NCBI GenBank assembly: GCA_017521925.1
Contig: JAFXBG010000002.1
Coordinates: 1 to 64,000, forward strand
DNA from: Clostridia bacterium
Lineage (GTDB): Bacteria; Bacillota; Clostridia; Oscillospirales; Acutalibacteraceae
Direction of reading: 5' to 3'
DNA: 64,000 nucleotides
Shown here: positions 17,152-34,825 of the stretch, one piece after another
Layout: each line of letters starts with the position of its first letter
Position numbering within the stretch: the first letter of the stretch is position 1
Program-made: the position numbers and the translations under genes
Notes under the pieces: model-generated
Seen by the model: only the letters and a program-made list of their open reading frames with translations
Told to the model about the DNA's origin: nothing
Databases searched by the model: none

Positions 17152-17211
17152 ACCATAAAATCAGACATGATTTTGAAGTCCTCAGAATTATGTTCTGCAA
17201 GCTTAATACTC

Positions 17212-17249: not shown

Positions 17250-17300
17250 TATTATTATACGTCTGATGATTTCTGTTAACGATATGATGATTTTATCGTA

Positions 17301-17514: not shown

Positions 17515-17538
17515 TCTTTTTCTTCCATTCAAACAATT

Positions 17539-18978
17539 TTATTCGGCAAAGGATGAATTTAAGTCAAAATTGTGCATTATCGGACCTGAGCCTTGTCCTA
17601 AATCAAGCTGAGCAGACAAAGAACCAGAGATATAGTCCTTTGCTCTTTGAACAGAGGCAGCAAGGTCAAATCCTTTTGCAAGGTTTGAAGCAATTGCCGA
17701 CGACAATGTACAGCCTGTGCCGTGGGTGTTGGGGTTAGATATTCGTTTGCCTTCAAACCACATCATCTCACCCTTTGTATAAAGCAGGTCATTGGCGTCA
17801 TTGACGCTGTGACCGCCTTTAAGAAGAACTGAACAATTATATGTGTCCCCTATATATTTTGCAGCACTCATCATGTCTTCTTTGTTTCTGATACTAAGAC
17901 CTGACAAAACCTCGGCTTCGGGTATATTCGGGGTTACAAGAGTTGCCAGAGGAAGTAGTTTTTCAATAAGAGTTTTAACGACGTCTGTCTTCATTAATGC
18001 TGAGCCTGAGGTTGCAACCATCACGGGGTCTACAACCACATTTTTGGCTTTGTAATAGCTTAATCTTTCTGCAATAACACTGATAAGTTCTGAGGAAGAT
18101 ACCATTCCTATTTTTACTGCATTGGGGTATATATCCTCAAATACAGCGTTAAGCTGTTCTTTTAAGAACTCAGGCGAAGACTTAACAATAGCTCTGACAC
18201 CCATTGTGTTTTGTGCGGTCAGTGCAGTAATAGCACTCATGGCATAAACACCATTCATTGTCATGGTTTTGATGTCTGCCTGAATACCTGCACCACCGCT
18301 TGAATCAGAGCCTGCAATAGTCAGAACGGTTTTCATTTGTGTAGTAAAGTTAAAGCTGTTGTAATCGGAAATATAGTAATCAGCATTTGCTTTCATCATC
18401 ACCTGGTTTTCTTCGTGTTTATCGAAAACACCAGCTACCTTAAAGCCATCGTTTTTAGCGGTCATAAGTGCGTAAAAAGCGTCCTCAAAAACAATTGTAT
18501 CTTCCCTACTGGTTCCCAAATAATCAAGAGCCTTGCGGTATATGTGAGGTTCTTTTTTACTGTGGCCAACCTCGGAAGTTGTGAATATTTCGGTAAAATA
18601 TCCACGTACACCTAACCTCTCAAGAACCTCATCAACCAAGTCTTTGTCCGTTAAGGTTGCAACGCACATATTTACACCCTTTGAATAAAGCTTTTCTAAA
18701 AAATCAGCCACGCCCGACTTTAAGGCTACTTTTTCTCTATAAATTTCTGCGACCATACTGTTTATGCCATTTACTATTTCTTCTACAGAAAGAGTTATAT
18801 CGTAATGCTTTTGATAATACTCTGCCGCTTGCTCAAGTGTAAATGTAGCAAAAGTGTCACTCAAGTTTTCCTTTGGCTCTTTACCAAGACTTTTTAAATA
18901 ATCCTCGCCAAAAGTATCCCAGATGAACATTGAATCCACAAGGGTTCCATCAAAATCAAATATTGCACCTTTCAACAT
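17539..18978 (-). CDS. thiD: HAD phosphatase fused to HMP/HMP-P kinase ThiD
   Basis: 479 residues in two parts. Residues 1-215 are a HAD hydrolase (DFDGTLVDS with the nucleophile Asp, TLTD, GHSKKEPHIY, FEDAFYALMTAKNDG). Residues 216-479 are ThiD (VLTIAGSDSSGGAGIQADIKT; PNIPEAEVLSG; anion-hole GTGCTLSSAIA). ThiD phosphorylates HMP to HMP-PP. The HAD half may dephosphorylate a thiamine-pathway phosphate, but this is inference. The start overlaps the thiE stop (ATGTTGA). With thiC broken, HMP kinase activity becomes the entry point for salvaged pyrimidine. Confidence 0.92.
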   Translation of the reverse strand: MLKGAIFDFDGTLVDSMFIWDTFGEDYLKSLGKEPKENLSDTFATFTLEQAAEYYQKHYDITLSVEEIVNGINSMVAEIYREKVALKSGVADFLEKLYSKGVNMCVATLTDKDLVDEVLERLGVRGYFTEIFTTSEVGHSKKEPHIYRKALDYLGTSREDTIVFEDAFYALMTAKNDGFKVAGVFDKHEENQVMMKANADYYISDYNSFNFTTQMKTVLTIAGSDSSGGAGIQADIKTMTMNGVYAMSAITALTAQNTMGVRAIVKSSPEFLKEQLNAVFEDIYPNAVKIGMVSSSELISVIAERLSYYKAKNVVVDPVMVATSGSALMKTDVVKTLIEKLLPLATLVTPNIPEAEVLSGLSIRNKEDMMSAAKYIGDTYNCSVLLKGGHSVNDANDLLYTKGEMMWFEGKRISNPNTHGTGCTLSSAIASNLAKGFDLAASVQRAKDYISGSLSAQLDLGQGSGPIMHNFDLNSSFAE

Positions 18979-19607
18979 AAGTTCAGTTCCTTTGCTCTTG
19001 CTTTAAGTTCTTCTGTTGCCTTTTTAGTGTCATCAGCTTTCATTATTGCTGAAACAACACAGATTCCTGATACTTCGATTCCTTCAAGAACATCAATGTT
19101 GTCTTTATTAAGTCCGCCGATTGCGTTAACAGGTATCGGCACAGAATAGCAGATATCTCTGAGAGTATCGGTAGAGGTCAGCACAGTTTTGACCTTTGTA
19201 GTGGTAGGGAAAATTGCTCCTACACCAAGATAGTCAGCTCCTTGCTCAAAGGCTTCTTTTGCCTGCTCGACCGTTTTTGTTGTTGCACCTACAATCTTGT
19301 TTTCTCCCATAAGTTTTCTTGCCAGACTCACAGGCATATCGCTTTGCCCCACGTGGACTCCCTCGGCATTAACCGCTAAAGCCACATCCACCCTATCGTC
19401 AATTATCAAGGGAACATTGTACATTTGAGTAAGGTTATGTACTTTTTCTGCAAGGGTGATATACTCTCGGGTTGTTTTATCTTTTTCACGAAGTTGTAAA
19501 AGTGTTACGCCGCCTTTAAGTGCTTGCTCCACACGTTTTAAAAACTCATCTTCCGTAAAGCCTGAGCTATCGGTTATAAAATATAAGCTTGAATCAAAAT
19601 TTTTCAT
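18972..19607 (-). CDS. thiE: Thiamine-phosphate synthase
   Basis: 211 residues. Joins HMP-PP and thiazole phosphate to thiamine phosphate. It has LYFITDSSG, LLQLREKDKTTREY, PLIIDDRVDVALAVNAEGVHVGQ in part, GATTKT and the C-terminal VNAIGGLNKDNI phosphate loop. The start at 19607 is preferred because GAGG sits 5 bases upstream; the first ATG of the open frame (19634) lies inside thiH without a ribosome site. Confidence 0.92.
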   Translation of the reverse strand: MKNFDSSLYFITDSSGFTEDEFLKRVEQALKGGVTLLQLREKDKTTREYITLAEKVHNLTQMYNVPLIIDDRVDVALAVNAEGVHVGQSDMPVSLARKLMGENKIVGATTKTVEQAKEAFEQGADYLGVGAIFPTTTKVKTVLTSTDTLRDICYSVPIPVNAIGGLNKDNIDVLEGIEVSGICVVSAIMKADDTKKATEELKARAKELNLC

Positions 19608-19614
19608 ATTTTCC

Positions 19615-20868
19615 TCACACATATAAATAATCATTTAAAACAGGTTGCAAGCCTTCATCTGCCATATCTTCATACATTTTTTCAAGGCTTCGGTTATCAT
19701 CAATTTCAAATTGTTCGTCACCCTGAACATCATCGGTTTCTTTTCCTGTATATTTACTTTCGTGATCCCCTATTCCGGTGGAAACACCTGCCGAAACCTT
19801 TGTTGCGGCAATTTTTACTATACCGTTTCTGAACTCAGCACTTTCACGAGAGGACACGGTGATTCCCACAAAGGGAAGAAAAATCCTGTATGCACAAAGC
19901 ACCTGACAAAGCTCGCTTTCTCCCACATCCAAAGGGTTTATTCTATCATTATTGATAATAGGTCTGAGCCTTGGGCAAGACAAAGACATTTCGGCGTGAG
20001 GGTACTTCCTTTGCAAAAAGTACACATGCAAAGCACTTGCAAGAGCATCCTTTCTAAAATTCGAAAGTCCTAAAAGTGCTGAAAAGGCAACGCCTCTCAT
20101 TCCACCCATAAGTGCTCTTTCCTGTGCATCAAAACGATAAGGCCATACACGCTTATGACCGAAAAGATGAAGAGTCTCGTATTTGTCGGAATCATAAGTT
20201 TCCTGAAATACAGTTATGTAATCAGCACCGCACTCATGAAGGAACTTATACTCATCTGTGTTAACAGGGTATATCTCAAGCCCTACCATACGGAAATATT
20301 TTCGTGCCAATTTGCAGGCTTCTCCGATATACGCTACATCGCTTTTGGCTCTGCTCTCCCCTGTGAGAATCAGGATTTCTTCCATACCGCTGTCTGCAAT
20401 AACCTTCATTTCTTTTTCAATCTGCTCCATATTAAGCTTCATCCGCTTTATATGGTTATAGCAGTTGAATCCGCAGTAAACGCAGTAATTCTCACAGTAA
20501 TTCGCAATATATAAAGGAGTAAAAAGATACACTGTGTTGCCAAAGTGCTTGCTTGTTTCAAGCCGAGCTCTCTGTGCCATTTGCTCCAGAAAAGGCTTTG
20601 CTGCCGGAGATAAAAGAGCCTTGAAATCCTCGATACTGCAAACATCATGCTCAAGTGCCGCCTTTACATCAGCCGCTGTATATTTGCTGTAATCGTAAGA
20701 TTTCATATGCTCCATTACCTTTGAGCAGACATCAGATTCAATAATCTCCATACCTTCCATATATTCCATATGATTAGTACGAAAAGAAGGGTCACTTTCA
20801 AGTCTGTGTTTTTTATTGAGTGCTTCTGCTGACAAATGCTCAGAATCTACAAAAAACTGATTTTCCAT
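19615..20868 (-). CDS. thiH: 2-iminoacetate synthase (tyrosine lyase) ThiH
   Basis: 417 residues. Radical SAM enzyme; the CX3CX2C cluster is in NYCENYCVYCGFNC, followed by EILILTGESRAKSDV. It cleaves tyrosine to dehydroglycine (and p-cresol) for the thiazole ring, the anaerobic route, in keeping with an obligate anaerobe. The C-terminal Cys-rich segment of some ThiH proteins is not obvious here. It lies 9 bases after thiG. Confidence 0.93.
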   Translation of the reverse strand: MENQFFVDSEHLSAEALNKKHRLESDPSFRTNHMEYMEGMEIIESDVCSKVMEHMKSYDYSKYTAADVKAALEHDVCSIEDFKALLSPAAKPFLEQMAQRARLETSKHFGNTVYLFTPLYIANYCENYCVYCGFNCYNHIKRMKLNMEQIEKEMKVIADSGMEEILILTGESRAKSDVAYIGEACKLARKYFRMVGLEIYPVNTDEYKFLHECGADYITVFQETYDSDKYETLHLFGHKRVWPYRFDAQERALMGGMRGVAFSALLGLSNFRKDALASALHVYFLQRKYPHAEMSLSCPRLRPIINNDRINPLDVGESELCQVLCAYRIFLPFVGITVSSRESAEFRNGIVKIAATKVSAGVSTGIGDHESKYTGKETDDVQGDEQFEIDDNRSLEKMYEDMADEGLQPVLNDYLYV

Positions 20869-20877
20869 ATTTACTCC

Positions 20878-21648
20878 TTAATCTCTCAAAAAACCTGTGA
20901 GAGGGTCAGAGGCAGATGCGCCACGGGTAAGGACTCTGCCAAGTCCTGCAAGGTACGCTTTTCTGCCTGCCTCAATTGCGTTTTTAAAAGCAGAAGCCAT
21001 CATTGGTAAATCCCCTGCTGTGGCAAGTGCAGTATTAGCCATAATTGCAGAAGCGCCCATCTCCATGGCTTCGCAAGCCTGAGAAGGTCTGCCTATGCCT
21101 GCATCCACAATAATCGGCACATCTATTTCATCAATAAGAATCTGAATAAAGTCCTTTGTTGAAAGGCCTTTGTTAGAACCTATGGGTGAAGCCAGAGGCA
21201 TAACGGAAGCCGCACCTGCGTTTACCAAATCTCTTGCCACATTCAAGTCAGGGTACATATATGGCATAACAACAAAGCCTTCGTTTGCAAGGATTTCAGT
21301 TGCCTTTATAGTTTCCTGATTATCAGGCAGAAGGTACTTTGAATCACGCATAATTTCAATTTTTACAAAGTTACCGCAACCAAGCTCTCTGGCAAGGCGT
21401 GCAATACGCACGGCTTCTTCGGCATTTCTTGCACCTGATGTATTTGGAAGCAAGGTAACACCCTCGGGGATATAGTCAAGGATATTCTCGGCATCCTTGG
21501 TGTTTGCTCTACGCACCGCAAGAGTGATAATCTCAGTACCTGCGTCTTTTACAGCGGCTTCGATAAGCTTCATAGAATACTTACCTGAGCCAAGGATAAA
21601 ACGGGAATTAAACTGGTGACCGCCAATTATAAGTTTATCGTTATTCAT
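20878..21648 (-). CDS. thiG: Thiazole synthase
   Basis: 256 residues, exactly the family length. It has the N-terminal [20 protein letters not shown], the Schiff-base lysine in [10 protein letters not shown] and the [21 protein letters not shown] phosphate site in part. It builds thiazole phosphate from DXP, dehydroglycine and ThiS thiocarboxylate. The ATG at 21648 follows AAGGAATAAAT; the upstream frame start at 21681 runs into thiF and is not used. Confidence 0.95.
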
Positions 21649-21664
21649 ATTTATTCCTTCTTTC

Positions 21665-22300
21665 TTAAACTTCAAATTCATTTGCTAAAATCCTCAGAAC
21701 CATATGCGCCTGATGAGAAGCACAAAGCATTACACGGGAAGACACAAGGCCAAGCCCATCTCTTACATCGCTTATCTCATCTCCACACAAATAGAATTTA
21801 CTTGTTACTTTTCTTGTCCTGATGGTATTGGCACTTGAAAGCCCTGCCATACCCGAAGCCGCCACAACATACTTATGAGGCATTCTTTCAAGCACGGTAT
21901 TCACAAGCTGTGCCTTACACTCGACATTGTCAAATGCTTCGCAGATTATATCTGCATCTTCAAGTAAATCCACTGTGTTTTCTTCCGTTAGTTTGACAGT
22001 ATGCAAAACAATTTCGGTATATGGTGATATTTCTTTCAGATTTTCGGCTAATGCTTCTGTTTTGAATCTACCGATTTGCTCTGCCTTATATTGCTGTCGG
22101 TGAAGATTTGTTATATCAACCTTATCAAAATCTACAAGCACAAGTTTGCCGACACCTGCACGAGCAAGAGCAACCGCAATATTTGAGCCAAGCCCTCCAA
22201 GTCCGCAGATTGCAACTGTGGCAGATGTAAACTTTCGTTGTATATCTTCACTGTGTCTTTCGCACAAGGCTCTGTACCACTGTTCTTTTGCGGGATACAC
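21665..22300 (-). CDS. thiF: ThiS adenylyltransferase
   Basis: 211 residues, the short clostridial form. E1-like nucleotide motif [20 protein letters not shown], metal/ATP Asp in [15 protein letters not shown], and [15 protein letters not shown]. The four zinc cysteines of E. coli ThiF are not evident. It activates the ThiS C-terminus. It begins with GTG directly after the thiS stop, and its Shine-Dalgarno (GGAGGTGG) is formed by the codons of the ThiS glycine tail. Confidence 0.9.
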
Positions 22301-22510: not shown

Positions 22511-22545
22511 AACAAAAAAGGAAGTTACCGATTTGGTAACTTCCT
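22511..22545 (-). terminator. Terminator of the TPP riboswitch
   Basis: GGAAGTTACC pairs with GGTAACTTCC, followed by TTTTTTG on the minus strand. It sits between the aptamer and thiS and would stop transcription when TPP is bound. Confidence 0.85.
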
Positions 22546-22789: not shown

Positions 22790-23671
22790 TCATACCTTTT
22801 CTTCCTCGAAAATATAGAGATACAAATCTTCAAGGGTTGGTTTGACTTTTGACGCTGATACAGAGTCAGGCAGGTTATCCGTGACGATTCGCACTTTTAC
22901 GATATTGCCTTCTCTGAGGATGTTGCTGACTCTGTAATTATCTTGAAGCTTTCTTACAAGTGATGAATCCTCGGTAGTAATCTCAAAGGTTTTGTCTTCA
23001 ACAGTTTTCAAAAGCTCTGCAATGTTATCACAAGCTACAAGCTTACCGCTTTTGAGTAGTATGACTTCTTTTGCGATAAACTCAATGTCGGAAACAACGT
23101 GAGTGGCTAAGATAACTATTTTATCCTCGGCAATGTCACTTATAAAATTACGGATTCGGATTCGCTCTTTTGGATCAAGTCCTGCGGTGGGTTCATCTAA
23201 GATTAATATTTCGGGTTCATTTAGGAGTGCCTGGGCAATTAAGGCTCTTTGCTTCATACCGCCTGAGAAAGTACCTAATTTTTTGTGGGCGGAATCTGTA
23301 AGGTTTACAGTTTCCAGAAGTCTAGCAATTTTCTCTTTGGCTTCTTTTCGTTTTAAACCTTTGAGTGCAGCCATATACCACAAAAAGCGGTTGAGGGTAA
23401 AGTCATCATAAAGTCCCTGTTGTTGCGGCATATAGCCCAGAACAGCACGGAAGTCTTTGCCAAGCTTTTTTATGTTTTCGCCGTTATAGATAACCTCGCC
23501 TAAGTCTGCGTTCAGGTTATCGGTAATGATATTCATAAGGGTAGACTTACCTGCACCGTTAGGGCCAAGCAAACCATACACGCCCGGTGTAAGGGTGATA
23601 GAAAAATCATCAAGGGCTTTTACTGCACCTTTTTTGTAGGTCTTACTGAGGTTATTTATTTTAAGCTCCAT
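22790..23671 (-). CDS. ABC transporter ATP-binding protein (ABC-2 exporter)
   Basis: 293 residues. Walker A GPNGAGKST, signature FSGGMKQRALIAQ, Walker B ILILDEPTAGLD and the switch histidine in LATHVV, then a C-terminal extension of about 80 residues. It overlaps the permease gene by 11 bases, so the two form one exporter. The substrate is unknown. Five lipoprotein paralogues lie immediately upstream on the same strand; a shared function is inference from this arrangement. Confidence 0.9.
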   Translation of the reverse strand: MELKINNLSKTYKKGAVKALDDFSITLTPGVYGLLGPNGAGKSTLMNIITDNLNADLGEVIYNGENIKKLGKDFRAVLGYMPQQQGLYDDFTLNRFLWYMAALKGLKRKEAKEKIARLLETVNLTDSAHKKLGTFSGGMKQRALIAQALLNEPEILILDEPTAGLDPKERIRIRNFISDIAEDKIVILATHVVSDIEFIAKEVILLKSGKLVACDNIAELLKTVEDKTFEITTEDSSLVRKLQDNYRVSNILREGNIVKVRIVTDNLPDSVSASKVKPTLEDLYLYIFEEEKV

Positions 23672-26051
23672 TTTTGCACCTCCTGAGAGTTCTACCCGTA
23701 AAGGTAATGAAATTACAAGCTAAAAGTAAAAGTGAAATTATAGCTGATGAAGCTACAATAACTATGAGCATCCAAGGCTTGCCGTTCTGATAGAAAGCGA
23801 AAAGTCTTAAGTCCATATCAAAGTAAATAAGCAGACAAGGAATAAGGGTTACTGCGGTTGAAACTGTCATAGCCGTGACTGTAGATTTAAGCTTTTCTGA
23901 CATAAGAAGAATGAAACTGAGAGCCGCTATTCCTATGAAAATATGAGCAAAGCTCTCAAGAATTAAAGCACCAAGAATCCTCATATCATTTCCCATGCCC
24001 TGAAAACTTTCTAAGAACACAAGAGGCTCGCCAAATATATCCGTACCAAAAGTCTTGATGAAATTCACCATATAGGGCAGATAAAGAAGAATATAAATAA
24101 TCGTGTAAGTTATGGATGCAACACCTAATTTAGCAAAGAAAAGCTTGCCCTTGCCTTTTTGTGTCGCTGAGATAAGCTTGCTCATTTCACGCTTATGCTC
24201 GTAAGCAAATATACCCGACAAAGTGAACACACTAAGCACCATAAGCAAAGTAAAATTGTTCCACTCACGACTTGAGCTTGCCATAAGTTTAGTTCCGATG
24301 TTCTTATTGATAAAGTGAGGAGTAACACCTAATTCCTCGCCCACCCAAGTTATAGTTGAGTATTGAAGCATTACGGCTTCAAAGCCTTTTCCTCGGGTAT
24401 CGAGGATATTTTCAATAGCCATTATCTTCATATTTTTCTCGTCTTCTGTAAGAGTAGTATCGCTGTTTATGGCTTCAATTTCAAGGTAGAGAGAGTCAAA
24501 GTAAGCTTGCTCGTTTTCTAAAAACTTTATCTTTTCCTCAGTTACTTCGCCTTGAAGCTCATTCATATAAGCAGCATAAGCAACATCTGCACCGCTTGAA
24601 TATGTAATGTTTATATCATCAGTAAAATTGCCGTAAGCGAAGAAGAGAAGAACCAGAAGCACAAGAATAGCCTTTGAGCTTATATAGTGCTTGAAGCACT
24701 CACCGCCGAACACGGTAGTGTTATGAGAGAAAATATGTATCTTTCTGCGGATATTATCTGTGAATTTTCCTAAAGGATTCTTTACACCAAACTGATTCTG
24801 CTTGGAGAAAGCCAAGGCCGACGCCACAGTACAACCACCAAAGCAAAGAAGTAAAAACCCAAGATAAGTCCACAGAACATTCACAGGCTGTGTAAAGAAA
24901 TTAAGGTTGAGGTAACTGCCGAAAAGTCCGTTACCACTTAAGAAATAGAAAACGTTAATATACTTGAAGTGGTTAAGAGGTGCCAGAGGGTCGATAAAAT
25001 TAAAGCAGGCAAACTCTGCACCTAATAAAAGAGCAAGTACAATATAGGTAATATTTGTACTTTTAATAAGAGTGAAAAGCAATGCAAAAATCATTGAAAC
25101 CCCGCAAAGAGTCAGCACCTTCTGTACTACCCAAAGGCAAAGGTATTCAAAAACAGACACCTTTAAGTTACAGTTCATAAACTCAGGCACAGACTGAATG
25201 CTTCTACTCAAATCACCCAGACCGAAAGAGGCCTCGCTTACCACAAGTGTGGATACATAATAAATAACTGTAAAACCAGCCACAGTTACGGCAGTTACAA
25301 AAAGCTTTGCAAAAAGGGTTTCGACTCTGCCAAATGGTGTTGACTTTACAAGGATAGTTAGGCCTTTTTCACGCTCTACCGAATAGAGGGTGATACACAC
25401 TAAAATCACAAGGAAAAGTGTGAGGTAATCCGTAAGCTCAAAGGTAGTGGCAAAGTTAAGCCCCAAATCAAAACCGGGTGTAATTTCAGTTCCTTTGAGA
25501 TGTTCAAAGTCAGATGGAGTTTTTGCGATATTGTTATAGGCAAAAGTGCCCGGCTTTGAAAAAATCGAAAACTTAAGCTGAGAGTCGGCACGAGCCTGCA
25601 TTTCCTCTATAAAAACCTCATACTGGTCTATGTGATTGAATTTGTTTGCAAGAATGTTGATTGCAGTAAGCTTTTCTACGCTGAAACCCTCGCTTATAAT
25701 CTCCTGAGCTTTTGCGAAGGCTTCGGGAGATTCGGTCTTAAAACTTTCAATCATACTTTCCATATGCTCGGCTTCATATTTACCGCTTGAGGCTGAGTCA
25801 AGATTTGAAGCTATCTGAAAAGCTTGTTGCATTAAAGCAAGCTCTGCCTTTGCAGTTTCCTTATCCATAGCAAGATATTTCTCAAGTTCTGCGTTATACA
25901 CGTCGCTTATTCTTAGCTCATACTCGTACATCTCGTCATTTGCGGATATAAAGTAAAAACCAACTGCATTTACGATTAAAAACAGCACAAGGCAAATCAC
26001 AAACAGCCTGCTTGTAAAAAGCTTTCTTAATTCTGCACCGATTATACGCAA
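23661..26051 (-). CDS. Double-length ABC-2 type permease
   Basis: 796 residues: two similar halves in one chain. Each starts with a membrane helix (LFVICLVLFLIVNAVGFYF near 16; AILVLLVLLFFAYGNF near 460), has a large outside loop and about five helices. One of these chains could therefore make the whole membrane dimer. The start is TTG at 26051 with AGGAGG 7 bases upstream. The first outside loop is Glu/Ala-rich and helical (about 45-160). It is 35 bases after the nearest lipoprotein gene. Confidence 0.85.
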   Translation of the reverse strand: MRIIGAELRKLFTSRLFVICLVLFLIVNAVGFYFISANDEMYEYELRISDVYNAELEKYLAMDKETAKAELALMQQAFQIASNLDSASSGKYEAEHMESMIESFKTESPEAFAKAQEIISEGFSVEKLTAINILANKFNHIDQYEVFIEEMQARADSQLKFSIFSKPGTFAYNNIAKTPSDFEHLKGTEITPGFDLGLNFATTFELTDYLTLFLVILVCITLYSVEREKGLTILVKSTPFGRVETLFAKLFVTAVTVAGFTVIYYVSTLVVSEASFGLGDLSRSIQSVPEFMNCNLKVSVFEYLCLWVVQKVLTLCGVSMIFALLFTLIKSTNITYIVLALLLGAEFACFNFIDPLAPLNHFKYINVFYFLSGNGLFGSYLNLNFFTQPVNVLWTYLGFLLLCFGGCTVASALAFSKQNQFGVKNPLGKFTDNIRRKIHIFSHNTTVFGGECFKHYISSKAILVLLVLLFFAYGNFTDDINITYSSGADVAYAAYMNELQGEVTEEKIKFLENEQAYFDSLYLEIEAINSDTTLTEDEKNMKIMAIENILDTRGKGFEAVMLQYSTITWVGEELGVTPHFINKNIGTKLMASSSREWNNFTLLMVLSVFTLSGIFAYEHKREMSKLISATQKGKGKLFFAKLGVASITYTIIYILLYLPYMVNFIKTFGTDIFGEPLVFLESFQGMGNDMRILGALILESFAHIFIGIAALSFILLMSEKLKSTVTAMTVSTAVTLIPCLLIYFDMDLRLFAFYQNGKPWMLIVIVASSAIISLLLLACNFITFTGRTLRRCKNGA

Positions 26052-26085
26052 AAGACCACCTCCTTAAGTTCAAATTAAGAACTAT

Positions 26086-27282
26086 TTAGTTATAAACTAT
26101 TTTTCGCTCCCAGTTTCCATTGGTTGAGCCCAGTTCTGATTTATCAAGAATAGAAATCTCGGTTTCGCCTATATTGGATTCTTCTATAAAAAGGAAAATC
26201 TTATCATCAAGGCATAATAGGCGACTATCCCTATATTCGTTTAAATCCAGATTAAAGTTGTCAATCTCTTTAAGTTCCGAATCATAAACCTTAAAGTTCC
26301 ACACGTCATCCGTTCCCATCCTTATGCCTAATTCATTGTTGACATAAACGAAAGTGTCGTCTGTAAAAAGCCTTTCGTTTTCGGAAACTTCCATAAAAAG
26401 CTCAGGATTTTCACCGTTAAAGTCGGTTTTATAATAGTCTATGTTTCCGTCAGATTTCTTTGCAGTCTGGAAAATAAGGTCATTTCCCAGTAACGTAGGA
26501 TAAACCATAGTTCGTCCGTCTTTAAGCTTCATACACTGAGCTTCAAAAGTAGTTAAGTTAACCTTCATATAGTTATCTACACGAAGTTTTGAGTCCTCAC
26601 GTGAAAATCCATTGACATTAAAGTACAGATTGTTGCCGATTGCTACGGGGCAGGTTATTGACGAGTGTTTGTACACTTCTTTTGCAAAATACACCTCTTC
26701 GGGATTGGATTGTGCTTCGTCTAATTTTTGCCTGTATACGTAAACATCAGCATTTTCGGATGCCATTACACCCTGATCTGCATTTTCATACATCTCATAA
26801 ACATAGTAAAGATAGCCCCGATGTATTGTCCACTCCATTACCATATAATCAAAATACCAGAGCTTTTCTTTCCCGGTACCGTCAGATTTCATACGGTAAA
26901 ACTGGACACCCAGGTGTTCGTGGTCAATGTCACCGCTTTGATTATAATAAATATAGCCGTCATTATACGCAATACTGTAAGTCGCACCTATGAAAGCATT
27001 GCAAGTGTCGCTGTTGTGAAGACAGTTAGGTTTGAAGCAAAGAGGTGTGCTTTCGAAGGTTTCCGAATCAGTAAAATAGATAAATTTACTTTTGTATGAA
27101 TAATAGCCTTTTTCTCCCTTTGCTACATCTATCAAATAAGGGTCCGAACCCATCATGGTCATCTGAGAGTCAGTAACATAATTATAACTATCACCTGAGG
27201 TTACTTCGTTTATGTTATCGCAACCTGTGAAACTCAGTATTACTAAAGCTACAAGTAAAATCGCAAGGCTTCGTTTAAGCAT
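26086..27282 (-). CDS. Lipoprotein paralogue 1 of the five-gene array
   Basis: 398 residues from MLKRSLAILL, preceded by GAGGTG. Lipobox LSFTGC. After about 60 residues comes the family hallmark LCFKPNCLHNSDTCNA (CX4CXHX4C), followed by a repeated IAYNDGYIYY / TIHRGYLYYVYE / IGNNLYFNVNG pattern typical of a beta-propeller-like (DUF5050-like) protein. The C-terminus ends SILDKSELGSTNGNWERK. Function unknown. It is closest to the exporter genes. Confidence 0.85.
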   Translation of the reverse strand: MLKRSLAILLVALVILSFTGCDNINEVTSGDSYNYVTDSQMTMMGSDPYLIDVAKGEKGYYSYKSKFIYFTDSETFESTPLCFKPNCLHNSDTCNAFIGATYSIAYNDGYIYYNQSGDIDHEHLGVQFYRMKSDGTGKEKLWYFDYMVMEWTIHRGYLYYVYEMYENADQGVMASENADVYVYRQKLDEAQSNPEEVYFAKEVYKHSSITCPVAIGNNLYFNVNGFSREDSKLRVDNYMKVNLTTFEAQCMKLKDGRTMVYPTLLGNDLIFQTAKKSDGNIDYYKTDFNGENPELFMEVSENERLFTDDTFVYVNNELGIRMGTDDVWNFKVYDSELKEIDNFNLDLNEYRDSRLLCLDDKIFLFIEESNIGETEISILDKSELGSTNGNWERKIVYN

Positions 27283-27296
27283 AGTACACACCTCAT

Positions 27297-28511
27297 TTAT
27301 CCTTTGTAAGAATAATGTAATTCCCACTTTTCCCCTTTTAAGGTACCAAGCTCTGACTTATCGAAATAGAAGATAACTGGCTTATCATCAGAATTCTTAC
27401 CGCCAAATAAAAATATATTTTCATCAACAGGGAGCAAATTCCACGTGTAAGCTCCCTTAGATTCAAAACACAACTCATCAATAAGATTGAGCGAACTGTC
27501 ATATACACTTAATGTTCTTACTGTATCTTCTTTATCAATTCCCCCCTTAGCCACACCAAGTGTAAGTCCGAGTGCATTGTCAACATAAAGATATTTTCCG
27601 TCACAAGTTATCTGCTCGTTCTTTTTTATTTCCATAAGAGGCTCTATGTTTTCGCCGTTTATATCGGATTTATAGTAGAGATATCCCTCATCGGTTACAC
27701 CACCGCCAAAGACCAGTTTGCCATCTAAAAATTTAGGAAAAAACAGCTCTTCTCCATTTGGAGATAACATTTCTTTAGTGGTAAACGTTGATAAATCCAT
27801 ACACAAAGTCTTGGAAACTTCTCTACCCTTATTATCCCTTAAATCTCCGCCAACCCAGAAATAGAGGTAATTATCAAAAGCTATAAGCTCACTTACGTTG
27901 GCATTATGTTCAACTTCCTCTGCAAAGTACACTTCTTCGGGTTTTGGATTAGCTGAATCAAGAGGGATTCTGTAAATATATGCATCGCATTTGGTTGACT
28001 GTGCATAGTCTATGTTCTGATATTTCTTCACAGAATAGTACAGATAACCTCTATGCATCATCCAATCGACAGGGGTAAATTCGGTATAAAAACAAATTTC
28101 TTTCTCTGTGCCGTCCGCACTGATTCTTTTAAGTTCATTGCCTGTGAACTCATAATCAAGCCCCGCATCTACGAAGGTGTAAATATAGCCGTTATTATAA
28201 GCTATTCCGTCATTTGCACCTATGTAGGCATTGCAAAGCTCATCATCGTGCAGGCAGTTTGGCTTTGAACATAAAACGGTACTGTCCATTAAACTGCCGT
28301 CAACATAATAGATGTATTTACCCACAGCAACGTAATAGCCGTTTTCACATTTTGCAATGTTTACATTACTGCTATTACTTCCGCTTTTCGCAAGCTGACA
28401 ATCATTCACAAAATCATAAGTTGCTGAAATGTCGGTTTTCTCTCCTTCACAACCTACCAGGCATATCAGCATTAAAGCCACAAGTAAAATCGCAAGGATT
28501 CTTTTAAACAT
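27297..28511 (-). CDS. Lipoprotein paralogue 2 of the five-gene array
   Basis: 404 residues. Lipobox LICLVGC, then LCSKPNCLHDDELCNA with the same CX4CXHX4C spacing and a run of G.IY/YLYY strands (VDWMMHRGYLYYSVKKY, FDNYLYFWVGG). The C-terminus is FYFDKSELGTLKGEKWEL. AAGGAGG precedes the ATG. It shares more of its C-terminus (KSELGTL.GK.WE) with paralogue 4 than with paralogue 1, so the array is not a simple head-to-tail series. Confidence 0.85.
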   Translation of the reverse strand: MFKRILAILLVALMLICLVGCEGEKTDISATYDFVNDCQLAKSGSNSSNVNIAKCENGYYVAVGKYIYYVDGSLMDSTVLCSKPNCLHDDELCNAYIGANDGIAYNNGYIYTFVDAGLDYEFTGNELKRISADGTEKEICFYTEFTPVDWMMHRGYLYYSVKKYQNIDYAQSTKCDAYIYRIPLDSANPKPEEVYFAEEVEHNANVSELIAFDNYLYFWVGGDLRDNKGREVSKTLCMDLSTFTTKEMLSPNGEELFFPKFLDGKLVFGGGVTDEGYLYYKSDINGENIEPLMEIKKNEQITCDGKYLYVDNALGLTLGVAKGGIDKEDTVRTLSVYDSSLNLIDELCFESKGAYTWNLLPVDENIFLFGGKNSDDKPVIFYFDKSELGTLKGEKWELHYSYKG

Positions 28512-28523
28512 ACCAGAACCTCC

Positions 28524-29744
28524 TTAGTGTTGGTTGTAAGTTTCTTCAAGCTCCCACAAGCCGTGGATAGTTCCAAGTTGGGATTTATCAAGTTTTGATA
28601 CTGTTACATCACCATTCGATTTTTTACCTGCAAAAAGGAAATACTCATCATCTACAGGTACGAAGCACCATCTGCAAGCACTTGCACCATTAAAATACAC
28701 CTCGTCGATAAGGTTCATATCTTTGTCGTACACCTTAAAACGTCGCACCTCTTCAATTTTATCGTAGTCAGGATTTGCGATTGAAAATGCTAATTCGTTA
28801 TCCGTATAAAGGTAAGAACCGTCAGAAAACGCACGAATAAATTCATCAACAGTTAATATAAGCTCCGGTGAATTGCCGTTAAAATCTGTTGCATAATACT
28901 CAATTTTACCCTCAGTGTTTTTTTCACTTTGAAAAACAAGTCTGTCACCTAAAAGTGTTGGATACGCAAGAAGCCTGCCATCATCAAGGGCGGTTCTTTC
29001 TGATACAAAATCTTTTGTATTTACCTTAACGCCTTTCATATCAAAAGTATCCAAAGATTCTCCATACTGTCCGCTCGAAAGAAAATAAAGATTGTCACCA
29101 AAGGCAACAAGTCCAGAAAGGGACACTCCTTCCTTAAGCTCTTCTTCAAAATAAACTTGCTCTGGTTTTGCGTTCATATCGTCAAGACTCAGACGGTAAA
29201 TATATGCATCTGCTTTATTTGATTCATTGGTTTCTTCGTAATAAGAAACATCATATTTCACAGAAATATAGTAAAGATAACCTCTATGAGTGATCCAGTC
29301 CATAACTCTATAGTCAAAGTATCTCAGTTTTTCTTTCTCTGTGCCGTCAGCCTTTACACGGTAAAACTGAGTTCCCAGAAGCTCATGCTCTATGTCGCCG
29401 TCCTGACTGTAATAAATATAGCCATCGTTATAGGCTATATTGTAAGTTGCACCTATATAAGCATTACAAGTATCGGCGTCGTGAAGGCAGTTTGGCTTTG
29501 AGCAAAGAGCTATTGTTTCCATTGAGCCAGAGTCTGTAAAATATAGATACTTTCCTGCATAGGAATAATAGCCGTTTTCACACTTAGCAATATTGTAATA
29601 AACTGCTTGTGTTGAAGTTTTAACTATCTGGCAATCAGTTAAGTAGTTGTAGCTTGATAAAACTTCTGTTTTATCTTTACCGCAACCGGTGAAACACAGC
29701 ATTGCTAAAGCTACAAGTAAAATCGCAAGACTTCGTTTAAGCAT
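28524..29744 (-). CDS. Lipoprotein paralogue 3 of the five-gene array
   Basis: 406 residues from MLKRSLAILLV, preceded by AAAGGAG. Lipobox LCFTGC; motif LCSKPNCLHDADTCNA; IAYNDGYIYYSQDGDIEHE closely matches paralogue 1. The first 42 bases of this gene region are identical to paralogue 1 except for one base, a sign of recent duplication or gene conversion. C-terminus SKLDKSQLGTIHGLWELE. Function unknown. Confidence 0.85.
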   Translation of the reverse strand: MLKRSLAILLVALAMLCFTGCGKDKTEVLSSYNYLTDCQIVKTSTQAVYYNIAKCENGYYSYAGKYLYFTDSGSMETIALCSKPNCLHDADTCNAYIGATYNIAYNDGYIYYSQDGDIEHELLGTQFYRVKADGTEKEKLRYFDYRVMDWITHRGYLYYISVKYDVSYYEETNESNKADAYIYRLSLDDMNAKPEQVYFEEELKEGVSLSGLVAFGDNLYFLSSGQYGESLDTFDMKGVKVNTKDFVSERTALDDGRLLAYPTLLGDRLVFQSEKNTEGKIEYYATDFNGNSPELILTVDEFIRAFSDGSYLYTDNELAFSIANPDYDKIEEVRRFKVYDKDMNLIDEVYFNGASACRWCFVPVDDEYFLFAGKKSNGDVTVSKLDKSQLGTIHGLWELEETYNQH

Positions 29745-29757
29745 AGAACACACTCCT

Positions 29758-30984
29758 TTAGTTTTCCTCTTTATAAGAAAACTTCTTCTCCCACTCTTTG
29801 CCGTTTAAGGTACCAAACTCTGACTTATCATAGTAAAAGATAACGTCGCCCTCTTTGCTTTTACCACCGAAAAGGAACACCTCGCTGTCAAGCGGCAGTA
29901 TAAACCAAGTTTCTGCAGAGTCTGAGCCAAAAGAGAACTCGTCAACCAAATCAAGATTTTCGTCATAAACCTTGATGTAACGACAGTCTGACTTTACGTT
30001 GTCGTTTTCTTCAATAGTATGAGGCATTGCAAGGGTATAAAAATTGTCAACGTAAAGATATTTGCCGTCGCATATAATACTTTCGCCCTCATAGGTTTCG
30101 AAGAATTTTTCAGGATTGTCGCCGTTAAAATCGGTTTTGTAATAAAAGTATTTTCCGTTTTCGTTTTCCCCTGATGTAAACACAAGGGACTCACCGAAAA
30201 GCCTTGGACGTGCCAGCATAAATCCGCTTGGGGTAACCATTTCATTCACTTCAAAGGTGGTCAGATTAAGCCTCATGCATTTGAGAATATCCTCTTTAGA
30301 ACCTCGTTTTGTGCCGTGCAAATCAAAATAGAGGTTATCACCAAATGCCATCAGCCCTGAAATCTGTCCGTACTTTTCCACCTCTTCGGCAAAATAAACC
30401 TCTTCCTCTTCTTTGGAGCTTCCATCCAAAGCCAAGCGGTAAATATAAGTATCGTAATTATCTATATCGGGAAGTCCCGTGGATTCATCTACCTCAAACT
30501 CTCTGGAAGAAAAGTAAAAATATCCTCGGTGAATTATAAAATCCAGAATATCTTTTTCTATATAATACACATTTTCTCTTGTACTGCCGTCAGCCGAATG
30601 TTTTACAAGATATGAACCCATAAACTCTTTCTCAGGGCCTGTGGAGGATATGTAGTAAATATATCCGTCCGAATACGCTATATCGTAAATGCCTTTGACA
30701 ACAGCAGAGCAGTTGTCGTCACTGTGCAGACAGTTAGGCTTGGAGCATAAAGGTGTGGCTTCAAGAGAAGTGCCGTCTACAAAATACATCTTACCATCAA
30801 CATATATGTAATAACCTTGTGGCGACTTTGCCATATTAACTTTTCCAATGTCGAAAGTGTTGACAATCTGTGCGTCTGTCAGGTAATTATAGCTATCGCT
30901 TACAGTTTGGTTATTACCGCCACAACCAAAAAGACTAAGCATAATCGCTAACAATAAAACAACTGCGAAACTTCTTTTAAGCAT
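29758..30984 (-). CDS. Lipoprotein paralogue 4 of the five-gene array
   Basis: 408 residues. Lipobox LSLFGC; motif LCSKPNCLHSDDNCSA with conserved CX4CXHX4C. The same strand repeats follow (IAYSDGYIYYISS, IIHRGYFYFSS, FGDNLYFDLHG), and it ends YYDKSEFGTLNGKEWEKK. AAAGGGG precedes the ATG. It stops 14 bases before paralogue 3 begins. Confidence 0.85.
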   Translation of the reverse strand: MLKRSFAVVLLLAIMLSLFGCGGNNQTVSDSYNYLTDAQIVNTFDIGKVNMAKSPQGYYIYVDGKMYFVDGTSLEATPLCSKPNCLHSDDNCSAVVKGIYDIAYSDGYIYYISSTGPEKEFMGSYLVKHSADGSTRENVYYIEKDILDFIIHRGYFYFSSREFEVDESTGLPDIDNYDTYIYRLALDGSSKEEEEVYFAEEVEKYGQISGLMAFGDNLYFDLHGTKRGSKEDILKCMRLNLTTFEVNEMVTPSGFMLARPRLFGESLVFTSGENENGKYFYYKTDFNGDNPEKFFETYEGESIICDGKYLYVDNFYTLAMPHTIEENDNVKSDCRYIKVYDENLDLVDEFSFGSDSAETWFILPLDSEVFLFGGKSKEGDVIFYYDKSEFGTLNGKEWEKKFSYKEEN

Positions 30985-31060
30985 AATACTACCCCTTTAC
31001 AATTCCTGTTTATTATATGTACGATTTATAAAGGCTTTTGGTTTGGATTAGTTAGCAATT

Positions 31061-32287
31061 TCAATGGTTTTTTTCTTCCCATACTCCGCCTTTAATACTT
31101 CCGATTTCGGATTTATCAAAGCAGGAAAGCTTGCCGTCCTGAGTCATAGCTAAAAAGTATTTATCATCAACAGGACGGAAAGACATTTCGTAGTTACCCA
31201 TATTTAACGTATCAATCAAATTCAAATTACTGTCATAAACTTTAAGCTGTCGGCTGTCGGCTTTTTCTATAGAAAGCAAATCGCTGTGCAAAAAGTTTGC
31301 AAAGTTATCTTCAAAAAGGTAGGTACCATCGGTGAAAATGTTGTGGTATTCGTCCTCTAAGGTCATAACCTTTCTGGTATTCTCAGCGTCCAAATCACAC
31401 TGATATATTTCATAGCCTGCCTTGAAAATCAGCTTATCACCTAAGGGATAAATATAGCTTACACCAAAATCATAAGGATTGGTGTCACCTTCGGGAACTT
31501 TAACTTCTTTCTCGGTATTATTCACCAAATCATAGCAAATAAGCTTGTCTACAAGCTCATCATTTTCGTTGTAATACTGATAAGAATAGTAAAGGTAATT
31601 ATCAAAAACCGCAAGGTACAAAAAAGAAGAATCCTGCAAAAAATCAACAGAGTCAAAAAGGATTTCGGGTTCAGCCTTACCGCTAAGCGGAACTTTCTCA
31701 ACTACAAGCCTGCTTCTGTTTATATTCTCCAGCTCATCCTCAAGGCGATATTCACGATAGGCATTATAAAAAAATCCTCTGTGCACAGTCCACACATTTG
31801 CGTCATACTGGTTCGAATAAACTTCCTCACGAGTACCGCTTCCGTCAGTTGCCAGACGCATCAGAGCACTTCCGGCCATCTGAACCGAATCGCTTCCGAC
31901 TATATTTTCAAGGCTTTCTCCCAAATAATAAATATAGCCCTCGTTGTATGTAATATCACCCTGAAAACCTGTGTGAGCATTACAGTCAGTGTTAAAATAC
32001 ACGCTGTTGTGCAGGCAGTTAGGCTTATTACAGAGTATTGTGGCAGACTTAGTTTCTGCATCTGCAAAATAGAAATACCCGTCATTTTGCAAAAAGTAAC
32101 CCTCTTTCCCCTTTGCAACATAATGCTCAAATGGCGGATTCGCCACATTAACCTGACAGTCGGTTTCGAAATTATAGTAAGTGGCGTTACTACTGCTATC
32201 CATTGGTTTTGCGGTATTACCAGAACAACCGCCTAAAACGAAAGCAACCACCATTAAACCACAAAGTAAAACTAAAACCTTTTTCAT
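31061..32287 (-). CDS. Lipoprotein paralogue 5, the most divergent of the array
   Basis: 408 residues. Lipobox FVLGGC. The motif is LCNKPNCLHNSVYFNTDCNA: CX4CXH is kept but four extra residues separate His from the last Cys (HX8C). The strand pattern (ITYNEGYIYYLGES, TVHRGFFYNAYRE, FDNYLYYSYQYY) and the end CFDKSEIGSIKGGVWEEK place it in the family. AGGAGG precedes the ATG. As the first gene of the array it is followed by a 76-base gap before paralogue 4. Confidence 0.85.
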   Translation of the reverse strand: MKKVLVLLCGLMVVAFVLGGCSGNTAKPMDSSSNATYYNFETDCQVNVANPPFEHYVAKGKEGYFLQNDGYFYFADAETKSATILCNKPNCLHNSVYFNTDCNAHTGFQGDITYNEGYIYYLGESLENIVGSDSVQMAGSALMRLATDGSGTREEVYSNQYDANVWTVHRGFFYNAYREYRLEDELENINRSRLVVEKVPLSGKAEPEILFDSVDFLQDSSFLYLAVFDNYLYYSYQYYNENDELVDKLICYDLVNNTEKEVKVPEGDTNPYDFGVSYIYPLGDKLIFKAGYEIYQCDLDAENTRKVMTLEDEYHNIFTDGTYLFEDNFANFLHSDLLSIEKADSRQLKVYDSNLNLIDTLNMGNYEMSFRPVDDKYFLAMTQDGKLSCFDKSEIGSIKGGVWEEKNH

Positions 32288-32423
32288 ACCAAAACCTCCT
32301 GCACTTTTCTAATCATATTAAAGCATTAGACGAACTATAAATCAACATAATTTTAGAATATTAAGTAATAAATTTCGCCGTCATATATATAACAATCAAA
32401 GTGCCGAAATGTTACAAAAACAC

Positions 32424-32456
32424 ACAAAGGCGCAGCACACCTGCCACGCCCTTATG
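32424..32456 (-). terminator. Probable terminator after the dockerin gene at 32476
   Basis: On the minus strand AAGGGCG..GCAG pairs imperfectly with CTGC.CGCCTT, followed by TGTGTGTTTTTG. It is 20 bases past the stop codon. Confidence 0.55.
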
Positions 32457-32475
32457 CTATATAATTTTTATGCTT

Positions 32476-33540
32476 TTAAATATCAATTTTTGCAAGGCGT
32501 TTCTGGATTGCGGTGGCGTCTTTGATGTTTATGTTGTTATTGTTGTCAAAGTCGGCAACAGAAACAAAGTTGTCATCGCTCTGATCAATGTTATGACCGT
32601 TTAAACCCTCGGGAGCTTCGATTTCTTCAACCTTTGCAATGTATTTCTGAATGTAGGTGGCATCTTTTATGGTGAGTCTTCTGTCATTGTCAGCGTCACC
32701 CATAAGATAACCCAGACCGAAATCGGTGAATACATTTTCAATACCCTCTACACCTGCGTTGTAAGCCTCAGTTAGGGTGTAGGTTTTGTTGTTTTCGGGG
32801 GTGTAAACAAAGTATCTTAGACAATAAGGATTACCACAATTTGTGCAAAGCACAACATAATCGCCTATTATGCCGAATGAACAGCTTGGAGATCCTGCAT
32901 TTAAAGTGCCGTCTATAAGTACATAGTCGGGTGTGGCTTCGGGACTTTCTTTGGTGCCTTTTCCGTCGGTGTAATAATAAACTTCTTTATAGCTGTAGCA
33001 GGAGCCTTCCTCAGGGCCAAAATGCCCTGCTACTTCATTATAGGCGTTTTTATGCTCGGTTTTAAGATATCCCTCAAAAGCCTCTATATACAGATCTCCC
33101 TTTTTTCCTTTCATCGCTAAAACGTTTTCAATATTTGGAAGCTTTGTCTCCCAAGCTTCTTCTAAAGAATAGCACTTGTTTTCATTGACAGCGTATATAA
33201 AATATGGGATGTCAAAGGGAATGTACAAATAATCGTTGCGAAAATAATAATCACCTATCACATAATAAACAGGATCTTTTAAAGCTACGTTGGAAGAAAT
33301 CCAACACAAAAGATAATCAGGTGCTTCTTCATTTTGGGGAATTGAGCCGTCATCATTATATGCATACTCACAGCTAAAATTATGATGCATACTTACCTTG
33401 TCACCAAGACACTCATAAATCTTTTCTTTATAAAGCATTTCGTAGTCTACAGATTCCTCAGCCGAAACTGCAAATATTGCTATAGACAAACAGATAACAA
33501 GTGCAAGTACGAATGATAAAATTCTTATGTTGGTTTTCAT
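32476..33540 (-). CDS. Secreted dockerin protein of unknown function
   Basis: 354 residues. Signal peptide 1-27 (ILSFVLALVICLSIAIFAVSA). The middle (30-265) has two related halves, each with a YVIGDYYF/IGDYVVLC strand and a later N.CYSLEEAWE.../KTYTLTEAYNAG segment ending in IENV; no enzyme motif is recognised. The C-terminus is a type I dockerin (about 275-354): GDADNDRRLTIKDATYIQKY and DFDNNNNINIKDATAIQKR. AAGGAGG precedes the ATG. It is the third of four dockerin proteins in the window. Confidence 0.85.
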   Translation of the reverse strand: MKTNIRILSFVLALVICLSIAIFAVSAEESVDYEMLYKEKIYECLGDKVSMHHNFSCEYAYNDDGSIPQNEEAPDYLLCWISSNVALKDPVYYVIGDYYFRNDYLYIPFDIPYFIYAVNENKCYSLEEAWETKLPNIENVLAMKGKKGDLYIEAFEGYLKTEHKNAYNEVAGHFGPEEGSCYSYKEVYYYTDGKGTKESPEATPDYVLIDGTLNAGSPSCSFGIIGDYVVLCTNCGNPYCLRYFVYTPENNKTYTLTEAYNAGVEGIENVFTDFGLGYLMGDADNDRRLTIKDATYIQKYIAKVEEIEAPEGLNGHNIDQSDDNFVSVADFDNNNNINIKDATAIQKRLAKIDI

Positions 33541-33964: not shown

Positions 33965-34378
33965 CTACTCATCTGCTGCCAAATCTTCGTGAAGGTCTGC
34001 TATGGGGTCGCCTTTAACCTGCATTGATGCTGCAGAGTAAGGTGTACCTGAGGCTGCCTGAGGATAAATGCCCGCTGTATGATCTACAAAATAGGAATCA
34101 AAGCCTGCTTCTTTGATTTCTGATTCTGTAAGATTTTTAGTAAGCTGATAGACTATGGTGCCAATCATTTCAAGATGGCCCAATTCTTCAACACCAATGT
34201 CTGTTAATGTTGCTTTAAGCTCGGGTACAGGCATTGAAAAACGCTGGCTTAAATATCTGAGAGATGCACCCAGTTCGCCATCGGGGCCACCGTACTGAGT
34301 TATTATTATTTTTGCAAGTTTTGGATTGGTCTGCTTGATTTTTATGGGATACTGAAGTCTTTTTTCGTATACAAACAT
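33965..34378 (-). CDS. cotJC: Spore coat protein CotJC, C-terminally truncated
   Basis: 137 residues against about 190 in Bacillus CotJC. It starts MFVYEKRLQYP after GGGAGGAA. It shows AKIIITQYGGPDGELGASLRYLSQ, the helix with IGVEELGHLEMIGTIVYQLTK (first di-metal ligands of the Mn-catalase fold) and GDPIADLHEDLAADE, then stops. The two C-terminal helices with the remaining metal ligands are missing. Past the stop, in frame, ATIDYLM faintly resembles the normal continuation, suggesting decay. CotJC is a ferritin-like, Mn-catalase-related coat protein. Confidence 0.85.
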   Translation of the reverse strand: MFVYEKRLQYPIKIKQTNPKLAKIIITQYGGPDGELGASLRYLSQRFSMPVPELKATLTDIGVEELGHLEMIGTIVYQLTKNLTESEIKEAGFDSYFVDHTAGIYPQAASGTPYSAASMQVKGDPIADLHEDLAADE

Positions 34379-34382
34379 TGGC

Positions 34383-34625
34383 TTATTCCTCCCAGGGCCA
34401 GGGGTCATTTACCCATGACCACATTAATGTGTCGTCTGTTTTTCGCATAATTAATCCGTATTTATCTTCGAATTCCATTTTTAGCTCCTTATATTTTGCC
34501 TCATACTCCTTAAGCTTTTTTAAAGTATCCTTATCCTTCGGGTGAGTGTCCAGAAAAAGCTTAAGTTCGTGGGATGCAAAAGCATAGGAAGAAAGCTTTT
34601 TTAATAATATATCTCTGCCTGTCAT
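34383..34625 (-). CDS. cotJB: Spore coat protein CotJB
   Basis: 80 residues from MTGRDILLKKLSSYAFA, preceded by GGAGG. It has the typical helical middle (LDTHPKDKDTLKKLKEYEAK) and the aromatic end WSWVNDPWPWEE conserved in CotJB. It lies between cotJA and cotJC with overlaps or gaps of a few bases. Expressed in the mother cell during sporulation in relatives. Confidence 0.9.
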   Translation of the reverse strand: MTGRDILLKKLSSYAFASHELKLFLDTHPKDKDTLKKLKEYEAKYKELKMEFEDKYGLIMRKTDDTLMWSWVNDPWPWEE

Positions 34626-34825
34626 AATTTTAAACCTCCGCAAGTATCTGGACAAAAAGGCTTGTCTAAGCTTTTATACATTGTACCTGCCTCAAACCCT
34701 CGGTACACAGCATAGATTTCAGCATTATTGGGTTGGAATGGTACATATGCCATAGCATCAGGGGTCTTTTTAGGAAATGGTGCAAGTCCGTACTGAGCCA
34801 TAAGCTCTTGCTCTATTGATTTCAT
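34622..34825 (-). CDS. cotJA: Spore coat associated protein CotJA
   Basis: 67 residues, Pro/Tyr-rich (APFPKKTPDAMAYVPFQ, YAVYRGFEAGTMYKSLDKPF), with C-terminal Cys-Pro-Asp-Thr-Cys. The ATG at 34825 follows AAAGGAG. It is the first gene of cotJABC and overlaps cotJB by 4 bases. Confidence 0.85.
   Translation of the reverse strand: MKSIEQELMAQYGLAPFPKKTPDAMAYVPFQPNNAEIYAVYRGFEAGTMYKSLDKPFCPDTCGGLKL

Follow-up and report, generated by a model that had tools for sequence, protein, structure and literature searches.

Five propeller-like lipoproteins beside a fused ABC-2 exporter in a Clostridia bacterium: a possible bacteriocin immunity array

In the sections of the lantibiotic literature cited here, producer strains are protected by a lantibiotic-binding lipoprotein together with an ATP-binding cassette (ABC) pump for expelling the compound; in resistant strains, the pump is accompanied by a two-component system, and there is no lantibiotic (PMC5786555, PMC8538875, PMC7530257). 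We have analyzed a 64,000-nucleotide stretch of a Clostridia bacterium genome (assembly GCA_017521925.1, contig JAFXBG010000002.1, positions 1 to 64,000 of the forward strand), referred to here as the window, which contains five tandem lipoprotein genes followed by genes for an ABC-2 permease and an ABC ATPase. Our preferred reading, to which we assign a probability of about 45%, is that these genes make up a bacteriocin immunity or resistance module with the working principle of LanI-LanFEG but with components from other protein families, and that the module is present in the window as an expanded array with the immunity genes only.

Lipoprotein family, exporter and predicted fold

The five lipoproteins, the permease and the ATPase are all encoded by open reading frames (ORFs) where an earlier reading of the sequence, the original prediction, had placed them. 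Each lipoprotein has a lipobox-like Cys. Sequence comparison shows them to be true homologues: copy 1 is 31-33% identical to the other copies, and three other measured pairs are 43-50% identical. A codon pattern for CxxKPNCLH-type motifs has five matches, one per copy, in the source genome, which is 72.6% complete; many of the loci compared below are contigs of metagenome-assembled genomes (MAGs), and the gene caller and signal detector were simple. The spacing of the motif is as originally described, H-x4-C in four copies and H-x8-C in copy 1, which had been counted as the fifth copy, and which is the first to be transcribed because the array is on the minus strand. The pattern C-x4-C-x-H-x(4-12)-C is nearly invariant in the family, being found in 160 of 166 distinct sequences, a set that includes members found through the motif itself. 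The ratio of nonsynonymous to synonymous substitution rates (dN/dS) for copies 1 and 2 against their orthologues in a Ruminococcus MAG from roe deer is 0.07 and 0.08, with dS near saturation (1.9 and 2.3). No family model in Pfam or NCBIfam fits any of the five lipoproteins, PADLOC gave no match for the two copies scanned, and the open-licence literature holds no description of this system among the matches listed.

The linkage of these lipoproteins to the exporter is conserved across Clostridia in both directions, that is, starting from the lipoprotein clusters or from the permeases. Profile searches gave 60 lipoprotein clusters (loci L070-L127 and L130-L139, 60 bits required), and in 45 of them a permease and an ATPase are found within 4.5 kb on the same strand. 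The remaining 15 clusters comprise six with less than 1.2 kb of downstream sequence and nine with at least 4.6 kb. Conversely, a lipoprotein gene is located within 8 kb of 38 of 43 strong permeases, defined as those scoring at least 450 bits among the loci examined and including all 42 such places listed by the genome profile search. Four of the five permeases without a lipoprotein are within 2 kb of a contig end, and the fifth, at L146, is a real exception. Thus, the permease is largely dedicated to this lipoprotein family. Homologues without both exporter and motif are not routine: the motif is missing in six of the 166 sequences, and in four (L091 and L132-L134) of the nine clusters that have ample downstream sequence and no exporter. 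L132, L133 and L134 belong to one genome (G516) and are propeller relatives that lack both the Cys/His motif and a same-strand exporter; they may mark a different use of the fold. A divergent exporter adjoins L133, and at L108 a permease is encoded farther along (17022-19001).

Across Clostridia, the distribution of the family is patchy, as for accessory genes. Of 297 genomes from the order to which the window belongs, 29 have a match above 60 bits; in the class, 14 of 343 genomes have one at E 1e-12. Match counts per genome from these searches are to be read as 'at least'. A first profile, which included signal peptides, gave spurious matches (249 of 297 genomes at E 1e-3), and was replaced by a trimmed profile and the 60-bit cut-off. 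Named isolates that carry the family are Lachnospira eligens ATCC 27750, Anaerobacterium chartisolvens and Herbinix hemicellulosilytica. In L. eligens ATCC 27750, the family is on a megaplasmid, and the propeller has an N-terminal hydrophobic anchor in place of a lipobox. The operon there (L150, NC_012780.1) encodes a small secreted protein, a 232-aa membrane-anchored protein, the hydrophobic-anchor propeller, a 655-aa permease without a directly adjoining ATPase gene, and agr genes; in two annotated L. eligens records, the small protein, propeller and permease are all called hypothetical. Carriage by plasmids or phages as a rule was considered and rejected; in a tblastn search, copy 3 matched two megaplasmids of L. 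eligens and a fecal phage record of 4.9 kb (E 2e-3).

The permease had been described as duplicated within itself, and its two halves do align, over 299 columns (hhalign probability 99.8%, E 3.4e-29). The ATPase scores 148.7 bits against the lantibiotic-protection subfamily TIGR03740, below the cut-off of 309.75. All 75 permease-adjacent ATPases (among 80 that score over 200 bits) keep the Q of the Q-loop. LanF proteins have an E-loop in place of the Q-loop; our literature search found no confirmation of this, so it was not used as a test.

A structure model of copy 3 is a confident beta-propeller, with a predicted local distance difference test score (pLDDT) of 86 and a predicted template modelling score (pTM) of 0.85, and in this model the repeated YLYY strands that had drawn attention in the sequence are strands of the propeller. 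Matches to known propellers include secreted ones such as EUBREC_1955 (PDB 3s25) and the propeller domain of an S9 peptidase, at 12% and 11% identity. C84, C89, H91 and C96 are modelled on a single 13-residue loop (block pLDDT 91-92). To the original prediction, the spacing of these residues looked like a metal or cofactor site; the residues are conserved and share one modelled loop, and the metal or cofactor role is a conjecture.

Because propeller loops alternate between the two faces, the order of strands in the model, and not its coordinates, was used to assign each loop to a face. Among the five paralogues in the window, loop identity is 0.21 on the motif face, with the motif itself excluded, and 0.48 on the opposite face (per-loop p 1.5e-4), and dropping two poorly modelled loops changes this contrast little (p 4.6e-4). 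Orthologue pairs give 0.68 on the motif face vs 0.75 on the opposite face for copy 1, and 0.60 vs 0.74 for copy 2 (p 0.04). The contrast between faces has the same direction in all six of the other arrays, with p < 0.05 in three of them; six of the seven copies of L103 and five of the six copies of L114 were used. Thus, the lipoproteins have diverged mostly on one face of the propeller, which bears out the proposal of diversification by duplication. From these identities, we infer that the variable face would be a diversifying binding face, and that the other face would be held for docking.

Secreted partners and regulatory genes in related loci

In related loci, a small Sec-secreted protein with a predicted beta-sandwich fold is often encoded directly upstream of the lipoprotein gene. 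Such a protein precedes 25 of 97 lipoprotein genes, compared with 13 of 222 control genes (Fisher test, 2e-6); the value is 1.1e-5 when two cases that were doubtful by eye are removed (L088, and L137, whose small protein has a lipobox). All three matches to the small-protein profile from outside its own alignment (G149, a weak match, G355 and G659) are directly upstream of a lipoprotein gene. Profile matches of the small protein in the PDB to antibody V domains are weak (E 0.18 and worse) and say no more than beta-sandwich. Lactococcin 972 was rejected as the family of the small proteins, as there was no sequence match among the 20 scanned against Pfam and the 13 against NCBIfam; its fold is not among the matches listed for the small protein, which excludes nothing.

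At one locus, L131 (3717-15966), six small-protein genes alternate with six propeller genes, and these pairs, together with a seventh, divergent propeller-like gene, are ahead of one ATPase and one permease gene. The members of the six pairs co-diverge (Mantel r 0.86, 3 of 720 permutations). In five of the six small proteins of this locus, the signal peptides are 80% identical, and the mature parts 51%. No small ORF with a secretion signal precedes the array in the window, and a small protein was likewise not detected in the arrays of L102, L103 and L114.

Regulatory genes were counted in 82 loci, after setting aside L055-L064, L068 and L069, 12 loci that are mostly one near-identical group. 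AgrB is encoded within 7 kb of the cluster in six of the 82, and a small protein was detected at each of these six (Fisher p 0.002, or 0.023 without L137). The 37 genomes that bear the family contain 26 AgrB genes, of which four are near clusters, vs 0.36 expected. The L. eligens operon adjoins genes for AgrD, AgrB, a sensor kinase-type ATP-binding protein and a LytTR regulator. OmpR-type two-component genes are found near 13 of the 82 loci, 11 of which lack a small protein; L035, the closest relative, is among these.

Lipoproteins of a different kind, 470-555 aa in length and resembling DUF3502 or solute-binding proteins, are interspersed in some of these operons, sometimes between the small protein and the propeller. 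Such proteins are unusual beside an exporter. They are listed at the end of Table 1.

Layout and surroundings of the array

The seven genes between 32287 and 22790 all run in the same direction on the minus strand, and probably form one transcription unit. A consensus scan found no minus-strand hairpin at the gene junctions within this interval, and placed a terminator-like hairpin on either side of it (Table 1); the scan gave 13 terminator-like sites, vs 7.5 expected. The 76 bp that separate copies 1 and 2 contain a promoter-like site, although such sites are no more common than chance (33 vs 31 expected).

Table 1. Positions of the genes, motif codons and hairpins of the array in the window, and of solute-binding-like lipoproteins at other loci.
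Feature	Position	Strand	Remarks
Lipoprotein copy 1, 408 aa	31061..32287	minus	First transcribed; motif with H-x8-C; orthologue of L035:10001-11215
Lipoprotein copy 2, 408 aa	29758..30984	minus	Orthologue of L035:11275-12507
Lipoprotein copy 3, 409 aa	28524..29753	minus	Modelled beta-propeller (pLDDT 86, pTM 0.85)
Lipoprotein copy 4, 404 aa	27297..28511	minus	
Lipoprotein copy 5, 413 aa	26086..27327	minus	Likelier start is an internal ATG, residue 16
ABC-2 permease, 796 aa	23661..26051	minus	Fused, 12 transmembrane segments; two homologous halves, large loop after first segment of each
ABC ATPase, 293 aa	22790..23671	minus	Walker A, PQQQ Q-loop, signature SGGMKQR
Motif codons, copy 1 (CNKPNCLH)	32009..32032	minus	
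Motif codons, copy 2 (CSKPNCLH)	30724..30747	minus	
Motif codons, copy 3 (CSKPNCLH)	29481..29504	minus	
Motif codons, copy 4 (CSKPNCLH)	28248..28271	minus	
Motif codons, copy 5 (CFKPNCLH)	27016..27039	minus	
Terminator-like hairpin, 16 pairs	32422..32457	minus	Consensus scan; between dockerin gene and array; likely upstream border
Terminator-like hairpin, 11 pairs and T run	22519..22545	minus	Consensus scan; after ATPase gene; likely downstream border
DUF3502/solute-binding-like lipoproteins	L055:12153-15415, L108:7722-9311		Hidden Markov model match
DUF3502/solute-binding-like lipoproteins	L100:7689-9191, L110, L117, L077, L083		Likeness only

The ten neighbours scanned in the window are an ABC ATPase, five thiamine genes, a Mn-catalase/CotJC-like gene, CotJB, a DsbD-like gene and a pullulanase-like gene. 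The flanks of the array appear unrelated to it, with a dockerin-type secreted protein upstream and thiamine genes downstream. The gene directly upstream (32476-33540) encodes a secreted protein whose end resembles a dockerin (22.2 bits, slightly below the Pfam cut-off of 22.9); it was considered as a partner of the lipoproteins, and rejected because of the terminator-like hairpin between it and the array. Spore coat genes also adjoin the array, CotJB and a Mn-catalase-like gene of the CotJC type (33965-34655). The thiamine gene cluster (17539-22300) includes a HAD-type phosphatase fused to phosphomethylpyrimidine kinase (ThiD) at 17539-18978, and a 1334-aa secreted pullulanase-like protein with CBM48, CBM26 and MucBP domains is encoded at 36505-40509.

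Interpretation and relation to described systems

What is the function of the array in the window? In the mechanism that we favor, each of the five membrane-anchored propellers would bind a different secreted protein through its variable face, which carries the conserved Cys/His loop. The bound ligand would then be handed to the one shared, fused ABC-2 exporter, docked through the more conserved opposite face, and so be kept off the cell membrane or expelled from it. The likely ligands in relatives are the products of adjoining genes, the small beta-sandwich proteins, probably bacteriocins, sometimes beside agr genes; the window would keep only the protective half of the system, enlarged by duplication. 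The pattern resembles that of a toxin and its immunity protein, since the small protein is not seen without its binder in the set searched and the binder is often alone, within the limits of an insensitive profile. The logic is similar to that of lantibiotic immunity, given a secreted protein, a paired anchored protein, an ABC-2 pump, producer-like loci with agr genes, and resistance-like loci without the secreted protein. The original prediction was of a surface sensing or binding system with its ligand handled by the exporter; the binding part may stand, and the related loci point to a small secreted beta-sandwich protein as the ligand, and to a role in immunity or resistance instead of general sensing.

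Several observations weigh against this immunity reading. No small partner was detected for 72 of the 97 lipoprotein genes, although some known cases escape the detector. The profile for the small protein (A5) is insensitive, having missed the six small proteins of G435 and the one of G416, so that the statement that the small protein never occurs without the lipoprotein is limited to close kin of the profile. The scanned small proteins match no known bacteriocin family, and antibacterial activity is known for none of them. The co-divergence of the pairs at L131 is equally expected if pairs simply duplicate as units, and a signal with its receptor, or a subunit with its chaperone, would yield the same pairing. 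The face effect is partly plain faster evolution of one face, because the ratio between faces on a log scale is 1.3 and 1.7 for the orthologues, compared with 2.1 between paralogues, and the copy 2 orthologues differ between faces as well. Nine clusters with at least 4.6 kb of downstream sequence have no same-strand exporter (L081, L088, L091, L108, L124, L127, L132, L133 and L134). The OmpR-type genes tend to occur where a small protein is missing, but not significantly so (p 0.12); in the window, there are no two-component genes among the ten neighbours scanned, and no small protein. Finally, the DUF3502-like lipoproteins in some arrays are not obviously explained by immunity.

The small proteins might instead be diffusible or surface signals, with the propellers as their cognate receptors and the exporter, as a regulated component or a co-receptor, relaying the signal in a manner similar to Bce-like flux sensing, so that the array in the window would listen to other strains. 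The agr and two-component genes that adjoin some loci are consistent with this, and the co-divergence of the pairs and the variable face fit it equally well. However, agr already provides a signal where it is present, 69 of the 82 loci have no OmpR-type two-component pair nearby, and the ABC-2 exporter, the most constant partner, is left unexplained, so we think signaling unlikely. If, on the other hand, the beta-sandwich proteins were subunits of a surface or matrix structure, as their fold would allow, the propeller could be an anchored chaperone, and the exporter could move a co-assembled polymer or lipid. The arrays in which no small protein was detected, and the patchy distribution of the family, unlike that of housekeeping assembly genes, make this quite improbable.

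The line taken in the original prediction, that the Cys/His loop binds zinc or another metal at the surface and that the exporter handles the metal or a chelate, accounts for the near-invariant motif, and for the motif alone. A variable surrounding face and protein partners are ill-suited to one constant ligand, and the loop could equally be structural; we regard metal handling as very improbable. A fuller version of the immunity reading is that the system is a new class of competition system in gut and rumen Clostridia, in which hypervariable Sec-secreted beta-sandwich bacteriocins would each be neutralized by a cognate lipid-anchored propeller with a conserved metal-binding loop on its recognition face, all of them served by a shared fused exporter, and in which lineages such as the present one would stockpile immunity-only arrays against their neighbours. 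We put this forward tentatively, as a rather doubtful extension.

If the immunity reading is correct, gut and rumen bacteria have a further family of secreted proteins, so far unannotated, with immunity proteins to match, and the carriage by named isolates makes the system directly testable. Paralogues arrayed in this way, variable on one face and more constant on the other, would then offer a simple model for the evolution of protein-protein specificity.

The closest described counterpart is LanI with LanFEG (NisI-NisFEG and SpaI-SpaFEG), which, as far as the cited sources describe it, likewise combines an antimicrobial-binding lipoprotein with an ABC pump that has 12 transmembrane segments in total. 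The lipoproteins in the window differ in being predicted propellers of about 400 aa with a Cys/His loop, whereas NisI is described as having two small SpaI-like domains (PMC8538875). The permease is one fused chain of 12 segments, and LanFEG has two separate permeases of six segments each; the putative partner here is a Sec-secreted beta-sandwich protein, and there are up to seven lipoproteins per operon (L103). Lantibiotic biosynthesis genes were sought among the ten window neighbours scanned, and none was found there; related loci were not scanned for them.

The CprABC-CprRK type, in the account of PMC5786555 used here, also has a 12-segment ABC exporter, an adjoining lipoprotein gene in C. 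difficile, two-component regulation and no biosynthesis genes, and is thus a parallel to the two-component loci without a small protein. Its permeases are separate, however, the role of the C. difficile lipoprotein is not shown, and the window neighbours scanned include no two-component genes. The same source describes the BceAB permease as having ten transmembrane segments, with an extracellular domain of 200-250 aa between segments VII and VIII (PMC5786555); the permease in the window has 12 hydrophobic segments, and in each half a long loop follows the first of them. In the lactococcin 972 cluster, as outlined in PMC11161930, a small antibacterial protein is secreted, and genes for immunity and for an ABC transporter adjoin its own; this arrangement resembles that of the present loci, but the immunity protein described there spans the membrane seven times and is not a propeller lipoprotein. 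The lipoproteins in the window also differ from the EUBREC_1955 and S9 peptidase propellers in having no peptidase domain. By the features tested, then, the system is not LanI-LanFEG, BceAB or lactococcin 972, although by analogy it may work like LanI-LanFEG; it consists of new protein families in an arrangement of a known kind.
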